Shown: positions 22,225 to 24,155 of the stretch, in pieces | Layout of the letters: every line of letters starts with the position of its first letter | Numbering within the stretch: the stretch's first letter is position 1 | Source: Pelatocladus maniniholoensis HA4357-MV3 | GTDB lineage: Bacteria; Cyanobacteriota; Cyanobacteriia; Cyanobacteriales; Nostocaceae | DNA length: 37,542 nucleotides | Direction of reading: 5' to 3' | Assembly (NCBI GenBank): GCA_019359115.1 | Contig: JAHHHW010000128.1 | Coordinates: forward strand, 1-37,542 | Notes under the pieces: model-generated | What the model saw: only the letters and a program-made list of their open reading frames with translations | The model's database searches: none | Told to the model about the DNA's origin: nothing | Program-made: the position numbers and the translations under genes

Positions 22225-22836
22225 ATGAAGTCTTTAGCTAATGTTCCCTTAATTCGCTTCACTTCTTTATCAGTCATAACAGCCCTCAGTCTGCTGTTAC
22301 CTGTTCATGCTCAACAAGCACAGATTATAAATATCCCTAACCAAGCACAACCTATTGACCCCAATAATCCTAATAACTTGCGTCCAACAGCCCAAAATAA
22401 TAGCATTTTAAGCGTTGATGGTGGCAAGCGGTTAATGTCAGAGGCAGGTCAAGCTGTCAATTCCCAAAACTATGATGCAGCTGCTAAGAAACTTCAGGAA
22501 GCCAGATCAGTTTTTAATCAGCTATCGAATTTTTATCAAGAACTCAATTCCAGCTTTTCTGGAATTGACAATAGAGTCGCTGATTCCCAACGTAAAATGG
22601 CACTAGAAACTGCACAATTGCGTGATGAAGCCACTTATCAACTAGCATTAGTACATCGAGCGCAAAATAAACCGGAATTAGCAGTTCCTTTACTAGTTCA
22701 AATTATCAAGAGTCAAAACCCCACACGAGACTTAGGTAAGAAAGCTTATCAGCAACTATTGGAGTTGGGTTTTGTCAATGCACCTTCCTCCACAGGAGGA
22801 AACAACACCTCTTCTTCGCCTCAGCCAAAAAAATAA
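22225..22836 (+). CDS. Exported helical protein, TPR-like
   Basis: A 203-residue protein with a clear signal peptide: basic start, hydrophobic LSVITALSLLLPVHA, likely cleavage after VHA (about residue 29). A proline/asparagine-rich linker (IDPNNPNNLRPTAQNN) follows. Residues 65-185 are helical with a TPR-like pattern (AGQAVNSQNYDAAAKKLQEARSVFNQL, then ATYQLALVHRAQNKPELAVPLLVQII). The tail is Ser/Asn/Pro-rich. I do not recognise a named family. It is likely periplasmic, perhaps a scaffold for other envelope proteins. A good terminator follows. Confidence 0.72.
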   Translation: MKSLANVPLIRFTSLSVITALSLLLPVHAQQAQIINIPNQAQPIDPNNPNNLRPTAQNNSILSVDGGKRLMSEAGQAVNSQNYDAAAKKLQEARSVFNQLSNFYQELNSSFSGIDNRVADSQRKMALETAQLRDEATYQLALVHRAQNKPELAVPLLVQIIKSQNPTRDLGKKAYQQLLELGFVNAPSSTGGNNTSSSPQPKK

Positions 22837-22873
22837 TTAAAAAATAATATTTACCATAAGTTCATCCAATAGA

Positions 22874-22900
22874 CCGCCGCCATCAGGTGAGCGGATTTTT
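22874..22900 (+). terminator. Rho-independent terminator after the exported TPR-like gene
   Basis: CCGCCGCC (22874-22881) pairs with GGTGAGCGG (22886-22894) around an ATCA loop, with one bulged A and one G-U, followed by ATTTTT. It separates this gene from the structured RNA downstream. Confidence 0.8.
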
Positions 22901-23030
22901 GAATGTCTATCTAAACTCCAGATATATATCTTGGTTTGTGAATAGTATTTATACTCAGGTTCCAGAACTCTCAGATTGGCAATGTCTTAGCCTCATTGTT
23001 GATAATAATATATAAAGAAGTTTGATTTAG

Positions 23031-23471
23031 GAATCGCGGTCAACAACCCAAGTCTAAAGACATTGGGCTAAAGCGCCTAAGAATTAGACAATAGTTGACC
23101 AGACTAAGTACCTTGCGTACTACGTTATTGGCAAGAGTTAAAGACCTACCAGGGAATGCGTAGCCAGTTCCTTGCTCTAGAACCAAAGGATTAAACAGAT
23201 TTATTGGGTTAAGCCAGTGTTCTTTGGATAGTACCGACCAATAACATTGTCTAGGCTAACATTACTCCCGCAAGGGAAGGCTCTTAGGGGCAAAACCGTT
23301 ATGCGTACAGAGTTGCGAGATTTGAAATGGTAATTGTCCCATTGAAAGTGCATTACAAAAGCACACCAAATTAAGTAATTCCCGTGTAATGGATTTAAGG
23401 CGGTTAAAACCGCACGTGTCGTTTCCCTCTCAGCCCTTAAGGGACTGAGTTTCCCACATTCCGCGAGGTCT
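23031..23471 (+). ncRNA. Large structured RNA ahead of bolA (candidate HEARO/omega RNA)
   Basis: No ORF of note, but dense perfect or near-perfect hairpins in one direction. GGTCAAC/GTTGACC (23038-23044 with 23094-23100) encloses CCCAAGTC-TAAA-GAC-A-TTGGG (23047-23067). Then AGTAC/GTACT (23107-23121), TTATTGG (23125-23131, repeated at 23201-23207) with CCAATAA (23238-23244), CCAAAG/CTTTGG (23183-23188, 23222-23227), TCCC-GCAA-GGGA near 23266, GTGC/GCAC (23347-23364), GCGG/CCGC (23400-23413), and CTCAGCCC-TTAA-GGG-A-CTGAG (23429-23449). The end, TTTCCCACATTCCGCGAGG then TCTT, abuts the bolA ATG. From memory, this 3' end resembles HEARO RNAs, the guide RNAs of IscB/IsrB transposon nucleases, here without any IscB gene. 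The alternative is a bolA leader of another class. Confidence 0.5.
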
Positions 23472-23472
23472 T

Positions 23473-23727
23473 ATGATTAGTCCGCAACAGATTGAGGAAA
23501 TGATCAAGGCGGAACTGCCCGATGCCCAAGTTCAAGTACAAGACTTGACTGGTGGTGGTGATCACTACCAGGTGACAGTAGTTTCATCGCAGTTCGCAGG
23601 TAAAGGATTGGTGCAGCAACACCAGTTAATTTATAGGGCTTTAGGACAAGCTATGTCCAGCGAAGCAATCCATGCTTTAGCACTAAAAACGTATACTCCC
23701 GAAACATTTGCTAGTAATAGTCCATAG
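23473..23727 (+). CDS. bolA: BolA family protein
   Basis: An 84-residue BolA-like protein: [22 protein letters not shown], then [31 protein letters not shown], with the conserved DGDHY-type motif here as GGGDHY and the RHQ-type helix as [10 protein letters not shown]. BolA proteins bind CGFS glutaredoxins and share a [2Fe-2S] cluster through a conserved histidine. The glutaredoxin gene lies 104 bases downstream on the same strand, separated by a heptamer repeat, which strongly supports partnership. The start codon directly abuts the 3' end of the structured RNA; no standard GGAG site is obvious, although GCGAGG at 23463-23468 could serve. Confidence 0.93.
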
Positions 23728-23750: not shown

Positions 23751-23805
23751 AATGACCAATGACCAATGACCAATGACCAATGACCAATGACCAATGACCA
23801 ATGAC
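23751..23805. repeat. AATGACC heptamer tandem repeat, about eight units
   Basis: Nearly eight perfect units of AATGACC fill the spacer between bolA and grxD. TTTGTCATTTG just upstream (23727-23741) is complementary to the unit, so the transcript can fold back. Same family as 5266-5293 and 19719-19768. Confidence 0.9.
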
Positions 23806-23831
23806 AACTAGAGAGTAGGAACACAAAAATC

Positions 23832-24155
23832 ATGACACCTGAACTTCAAGAACGTATTGACAGTTTACTCAAAGAAAACAAAATTTTGGTTTTTATGAAG
23901 GGAACCAAATTAATGCCCATGTGTGGTTTTTCCAACAATGTTGTGCAGATTTTGAACACATTAGGAGTTCCCTTTGAAACTGTTAATATTTTGGACGACA
24001 ACGAACTTCGTCAAGGAATAAAAGAATATTCCAACTGGCCAACAATTCCCCAAGTCTATATCAACGGGGAATTTGTCGGTGGTTCAGACATCTTGATTGA
24101 ACTTTATCAAAAAGGTGAATTGCAGCAAAAGGTAGAAGTCGCTTTAGCTTCTTAG
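23832..24155 (+). CDS. grxD: Monothiol glutaredoxin (Grx4/GrxD type)
   Basis: A 107-residue CGFS glutaredoxin. The active site is [16 protein letters not shown] (C33 or nearby), glutathione is bound through [19 protein letters not shown], and KGTK precedes the active site as in the whole family. These proteins carry a [2Fe-2S] cluster as homodimers, or with BolA as heterodimers, and serve in iron-sulfur cluster transfer and iron sensing. The bolA gene is immediately upstream on the same strand. ATG start; length typical of the single-domain class. A symmetrical terminator stands between it and the convergent next gene. Confidence 0.95.

Follow-up and report, generated by a model that had tools for sequence, protein, structure and literature searches.

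The window analysed here is a stretch of 37,542 nucleotides of Pelatocladus maniniholoensis HA4357-MV3 (contig JAHHHW010000128.1, positions 1-37,542), and at 23039-23472 on its forward strand lies a 434-bp mobile element that holds an omega RNA but no protein gene and ends directly 5' of the ATG of bolA (Table 1; C-numbers denote contigs of the same genome, G000). MITE-like elements of Y1 transposases are non-autonomous IS200/IS605 elements, and it is very probable that we are dealing with one of these, carrying a solo HEARO/omega RNA and built to work in the manner set out below. Stand-alone omega RNAs are already known and this element adds another; less expected is that about half of the omega-RNA elements that we mapped sit on start codons, mostly with a Shine-Dalgarno-like GAGGT end.

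Table 1. Features of the bolA insertion site, in window coordinates
Feature	Position	Strand	Remarks
Whole inserted element	23039..23472	+	434 bp, no ORF; own-genome matches and empty sites in congeners
Predicted guide, the old bolA leader	23023..23038	+	16 nt shown (not a measured length); now 5' of the omega-RNA scaffold
Omega-RNA (HEARO) scaffold, 5' half of element	23039..23265	+	RF02033 model 1-211 of 211
3' part of element	23266..23472	+	iscB coding relic not found (tblastn)
Subterminal hairpin CTCAGCCCTTAAGGGACTGAG	23429..23449	+	Read directly from the sequence; also occurs in the end after tnpA
GAGGT, Shine-Dalgarno-like, supplied by the element	23465..23469	+	3 bases 5' of the bolA ATG
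ATGA, insertion-site tetranucleotide, TAM-like, holding the first bolA codon	23473..23476	+	
bolA, intact host gene downstream	23473..23727	+	84 aa; PF01722, E 1.1e-18
Glutaredoxin-family gene, host gene outside the element	23832..24155	+	107 aa; PF00462, E 6.1e-24; adjoins bolA

The sequence-only reading had seen a large structured RNA without an ORF at 23031-23471 and had tentatively assigned it to the HEARO/IscB omega RNAs. Both points were borne out. The HEARO model (RF02033), which had been named there as a check, matched 23039-23265 (+) over its full length (1-211 of 211) with 154.3 bits (E = 8.4e-33; gathering cut-off 83), and no other Rfam family exceeded its own cut-off in the window; when 22800-23700 was scanned permissively, a single further match appeared, with an E value of 4.4. 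The predicted fold of 23039-23472 has an energy of -126.4 kcal/mol, compared to a mean of -106.7 kcal/mol for shuffled sequences (z = -3.1; 0 of 100 shuffles as low), and the Rfam structure mapped onto this copy comprises 67 pairs in 12 helices, with 6 pairs non-canonical. The longest stop-free run on the sense strand is 40 codons; there is no sense-strand ORF of at least 50 aa in 23039-23472, and the sole ORF of that size is antisense, at 23201-23353. Since no HNH/IscB ORF lies directly downstream of the scaffold within the element, we file it as a solo omega RNA, in agreement with the solo guide RNA proposed earlier. We considered that the element arose by internal deletion of an IscB or TnpA gene, and dropped this origin after TnpA and four IscB/IsrB-like proteins, compared with the solo elements by tblastn, returned chance hits only (best E 0.074).

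The limits of the element came from its relatives in the same genome. A blastn search with 22980-23500 gave 28 own-genome matches, and the near-full-length ones besides the window copy (on C90, C21, C133 and C96) all start at 23039 and stop with the ATGA, at 23476 or 23477 (query coordinates 60 to 497/498, in a query that included the ATGA). The stretch first reported at 23031-23471 thus takes the limits 23039-23472, the latter just before the bolA ATG (23473, the gene being identified by PF01722). The terminator thought to bound it upstream was not recovered, with 0 terminator-like sites in a scan of 22800-23500, and a consensus scan of the same interval found 0 sigma-70-like promoters against 1.6 expected.

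We compared the locus in three congeners (G001, G002 and G003), as had also been suggested, and the outcome favored the omega-RNA reading. In all three the 5' flank of the window joins bolA directly (...GGAATCGCG|ATGATTAGTCC) with nothing between, and 96-98 of 100 joined window bases are identical. The occupied junctions read guide|GTCA...GAGGTCTT|ATGA, the three empty sites share the same junction, and there is no target duplication. The 16-base leader at 23023-23038 is identical in G003 and lacks one T in G001 and G002. A second copy, located before argS on C140, likewise has exact-junction empty sites in all three congeners. The bolA insertion is absent from all three and therefore probably young.

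The genome contains 16 HEARO matches above the cut-off and 2 below it, among which the window copy is the second best. Including the ATGA, the solo copies measure 303-650 bp and a copy on C146 that bears an IscB gene 1634 bp; the latter carries a different omega-RNA subtype, with a GTCAGT start. In four solo copies (on C102, C142, C163 and C140) the 3' part is longer by 158 bases, located at one common position (about 259-264 of the element); the window copy lacks them. All 18 own-genome 3' ends listed are followed by ATGA, a count that is not independent because the query contained ATGA, and most have a CTCAG...CTGAG-like hairpin. At 6 of the 18 the ATG opens a long ORF (220, 585, 405, 239, 111 and 84 aa). 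Pfam assigns four of these to an NAD-binding protein, an arginyl-tRNA synthetase, a trypsin/PDZ protease and a heme oxygenase; the window ORF is BolA, and the 111-aa ORF resembles an ArsR-like regulator by eye.

Candidate partner proteins are encoded elsewhere in the genome. There are five matches to RRXRR-domain (IscB/IsrB) genes, of which three encode full-length IscB-like proteins (423-439 aa) on contigs other than the window's; their RuvC-like and HNH stretches align with those of two plasmid-borne relatives, one annotated as iscB. The other two are a 350-aa protein without an HNH match and a fragment with a 72-aa open frame. The 350-aa, IsrB-like protein (C121:7379-7840, +) directly follows a 32.9-bit HEARO match (C121:7166-7349, +), and the two make a candidate IsrB locus. 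Y1 transposases account for three matches. One of them, the C108 tnpA (PF01797), is directly followed by a 3' end that is 71% identical to the last 78 bases of the window element (97 aligned columns, 3' end only compared) and then by ATGA; the subterminal hairpin occurs there with a longer loop, and a divergent tnpB-like gene lies beside the tnpA. A divergent tnpB-like/tnpA pair occupies L045:179-1989; its tnpA side has the end of the omega-RNA elements and their ATGA flank, and one target tetranucleotide could serve TnpB and IscB on opposite strands.

The sequence-only reading had also noted that the ATGA at the bolA start matches a target-type motif, and this was upheld on a larger sample. 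When the flank was left free in the search pattern, 106 distinct related 3' ends from this and related genomes were followed by ATGA in 98 cases, GTGA in 2, CTGA in 1 and something else in 5; these ends were deduplicated only by their 50 downstream bases, and probable orthologous insertions remain among them (for example L095/L107 and L083/L130). The underlying loci cover part of the places located; G029, for example, contributes 2 of 26, though the Dolichospermum ST_sed8 loci among the 40 named loci probably cover the same genome. Many of the weak matches to the omega-RNA profile among these ends (scores of about 17-30) are probably hairpin look-alikes, and we dropped the idea that all profile matches are omega RNAs. 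We then defined a set of omega-RNA elements, 37 in all (35 solo and 2 of IscB length), for which both ends are mapped. It consists of those with profile scores of at least 90 and a match from profile position 1 onwards, together with five own-genome copies missed by the 3' pattern (window, C140, C105, C80 and C21). The set excludes L154 (score 97, start at profile position 50, with a flank TGAT that becomes ATGA when moved by one base), C59 and C7 (3' ends not mapped), and C8 and C121. All 37 begin with GTCA and all 37 are followed by NTGA (35 ATGA, 1 GTGA and 1 CTGA). Clean insertion beside a fixed tetranucleotide without duplication, as at the bolA and argS empty sites, and an end in common with an element of a Y1 transposase in the same genome (C108, 3' end only) are what is expected of an IS200/IS605-type element.

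An omega RNA carries its guide 5' of the scaffold (compare PMC9581776). The guide had been predicted to come from just 5' of 23031; its source is indeed 5' of the element, but from just 5' of 23039. The target predicted for the window guide is TGATTTAGGAATCGCG followed by ATGA, with ATGA as the presumed working TAM by analogy with IsrB. Should the TAM be NTGA, the motif determined for the related IsrB (PMC9581776), guide plus NTGA occurs only in the empty allele, while the occupied site has guide plus GTCA. No second site with two or fewer mismatches to guide plus NTGA was found in the window's genome; four sites have 3 mismatches, and one of these is followed by GTGA.

From these parts we propose the following. 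A Y1 transposase acting in trans would have placed the element immediately 5' of ATGA, the bolA start, so that the scaffold now directly follows the promoter and leader of the host's bolA. The transcript from the bolA promoter would then be an omega RNA with the old bolA leader as its guide, continuing into the bolA mRNA. This RNA would be loaded into IscB encoded elsewhere in the genome, and the complex would cut DNA in which the leader is uninterrupted and followed by ATGA, such as empty sister chromosomes, incoming alleles and sites left by excision. As this group of cyanobacteria is polyploid, sister chromosomes with an empty site would offer ready targets. Cutting of empty alleles would help the element to be retained or to home, whereas the occupied copy would escape, having GTCA and not NTGA after the guide sequence. 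The bolA ORF is kept, and its ribosome-binding site would be taken from the end of the element.

The position on a start codon is not peculiar to bolA. Of the 98 ATGA-flanked 3' ends, 46 have an ATG that begins an ORF of 80 aa or more, compared to 621 of 4667 background ATGAs (13.3%) put through the same test in the same loci, and to 11.1% among tolerable sites (1650 intergenic and 206 start-like); this background is based on ORFs rather than annotation and on loci that already hold element sites. Among the omega-RNA elements, 19 of 37 lie on a gene start codon vs. 11% of tolerated ATGA sites (Fisher P = 3e-9, nominal, as are all start-codon P values here, because probable orthologous insertions remain among the loci). 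In all 19 the frame of the empty site meets an upstream stop within 96 bases, which puts the ATG at the beginning of the gene or close to it, rather than far inside one. In two genomes (L095 and L107) such ends lie directly before the start of apparently the same 447-aa ORF, biotin-carboxylase-like by eye, and this insertion is probably shared and older.

The ends themselves resemble ribosome-binding sites. In the 19 pairs, the predicted duplex with the anti-Shine-Dalgarno sequence had a mean of -6.2 kcal/mol for element ends vs. -1.9 kcal/mol for the displaced leaders (Wilcoxon P = 6e-4, with 5 of the 19 ascertained through GAGGT); the order was reversed, with the displaced leader better, in 3 of 19 (L120, L129 and L156). 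At bolA the values are -6.6 kcal/mol for the element end and -4.2 kcal/mol for the native leader. Because the search pattern behind the 40 named loci itself contains a fixed GAGGT, these loci are no test of its conservation, and they supply 5 of the 19 start-codon elements; GAGGT is present in 12 of the 14 start-codon elements outside those loci.

We tentatively suggest, while holding it rather more likely to be wrong than right, that an ATGA TAM, because it holds an ATG, makes omega-RNA elements dock on start codons in sense, where the host promoter would transcribe the guide RNA, the host leader would become the guide, and the GAGGT end would restore translation. If true, a single tetranucleotide would account for promoter capture, guide capture and damage control alike, and elements before genes such as argS, an essential gene, would be tolerated with their guides expressed. 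A start-codon bias exclusive to omega-RNA elements is not supported, as 25 of 61 elements with the same 3' ends but no omega RNA recognised by the profile are also on start codons; this comparison is blurred by a family of 324-348 bp in the latter group, one scanned copy of which has a sub-threshold HEARO match. The start-codon excess may therefore be a property of the common ends with their transposase, or of survival, and not of the RNA.

That 324-348 bp family is a second solo family, found at eleven G074 loci (L103, L125, L126, L131, L132, L136, L140, L142, L143, L144 and L146) with a GAGGTYTT|ATGA end. A GTCA start and ATGA after the end were present in 11 of the 11 checked. The single copy scanned permissively, L125, gave a full-length HEARO match at a sub-threshold 39.2 bits, and the family may be a divergent omega RNA, possibly of IsrB type, below the Rfam cut-off.

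Three other explanations of the window element were weighed. The sequence-only reading had allowed for a new bolA leader, that is, a native and conserved leader RNA of riboswitch-like kind that has nothing to do with omega RNAs. Such a leader would also be structured and stop at the start codon, but it is refuted by the HEARO match and the clean empty sites in all three congeners, which argue against any conserved leader here; together with the many copies elsewhere in the genome they leave it a negligible probability. The element could instead have been co-opted, with its structured leader, the binding of IscB-omega RNA, or both, now regulating bolA as an adapted leader. An intact gene does have it as its leader, complete with a Shine-Dalgarno-like site from the element, and about half of the mapped related elements are on gene start codons. 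However, the insertion is probably young given the three congeners that lack it, the sites precede unrelated genes, and no intact target of the guide occurs in the window's genome; we therefore consider co-option quite improbable.

A relic is a more serious rival, which overlaps with our preferred reading and differs only in present activity: the element would be of the same kind, its RNA no longer expressed or loaded, and be tolerated before bolA. We aligned 13 copies of the window subtype with MAFFT (12 from the window's genome and 1 from another genome), mapping the Rfam structure from the window; the 12 are those of the 16 own copies above the cut-off that remain when C146, C8, C59 and C121 are left out as other subtypes. 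Pairing was maintained in 84.4% of cells overall, but helices 2, 4 and 8 paired in only 57-65%, and within the scaffold the divergence of the window copy from 10 other own-genome copies is 5-19%. Against this, the window copy ranks second among the HEARO matches of its genome, and in 8 of 10 own-genome comparisons with it the similarity is clearly greater over the scaffold than over the 3' part (C142 is a near tie and C96 is reversed). Twelve pairs carry changes on both sides, compared to a shuffled mean of 5.9, a number reached by 0 of 500 shuffles and above the 2-6 of slid controls (the shuffles ignore relatedness); the covariation score was 0.151 vs. 0.094 when shuffled. This covariation may stem from parent copies instead of selection on the window copy. 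On balance a relic appears unlikely, well behind an element of the proposed working design in our estimation.

The element shares with HEARO/IscB omega RNAs (RF02033) the full-length model match, the conserved pairs, the 5' position of the guide and the NTGA after the 3' end, and differs from them in having no HNH/IscB ORF in cis and in an activity that is only predicted. From non-autonomous IS200/IS605 elements, which it resembles in the fixed tetranucleotide on one side, the lack of target duplication, the subterminal hairpin and the end of a tnpA/tnpB-like locus, it is set apart by its omega-RNA cargo. It is like the stand-alone omega RNAs in having no nuclease gene of its own and candidate nucleases elsewhere in the genome; base-mapped empty sites and the start-codon position are additions, either of which the original study may report. 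Stand-alone omega RNAs reportedly act in trans with IscB (a finding attributed to Altae-Tran and others in 2021), and the original description of HEARO is said to have given an ATGA/GTGA flank. That stand-alone omega RNAs work with IscB is stated in PMC9581776, and a link between HEARO and the nuclease is drawn in PMC9755519. According to PMC9581776 the IsrB TAM is NTGA, with TTGA preferred at 60 C; ATGA, the flank of the window element, is cut too. IsrB has no HNH, however, and the window RNA scores as HEARO, whereas the RNA beside the HNH-less relative in this genome reaches only 32.9 bits.

Among the matches listed for the open-access literature, judged by title and opening of the abstract, none reports start-codon occupancy for HEARO, IscB, IS605 or IS200 elements, which is weak evidence of absence. 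HEARO matches in another cyanobacterium were left out of a transcriptome discussion as 'intron remnants', according to an excerpt of PMC8400943, and HEARO loci are therefore probably under-read. A map of transcription start sites has been described for Nodularia spumigena CCY9414 (PMC3610870), and among the related loci a HEARO copy lies in L109 (genome G104). The window element is a stand-alone omega RNA resolved to the base: sister species have the empty site, candidate IscBs are encoded in trans, and its junction would account for the occupied site escaping cleavage. Start-codon occupancy combined with a ribosome-binding-like end provides a testable account of how a promoterless guide RNA might be expressed and insertions at genes tolerated.

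Finally, the sequence-only reading had placed the RNA in front of an Fe-S partner gene pair. Both genes were confirmed, bolA by PF01722 and the downstream glutaredoxin by PF00462, but their pairing with the element looks like an accident of the insertion site, since other copies precede argS, a Deg-type protease, a heme oxygenase, an NAD-binding protein, or no long ORF. Between bolA and the glutaredoxin gene, at 23751-23806 of the window, a tandem AATGACC repeat is visible by eye.
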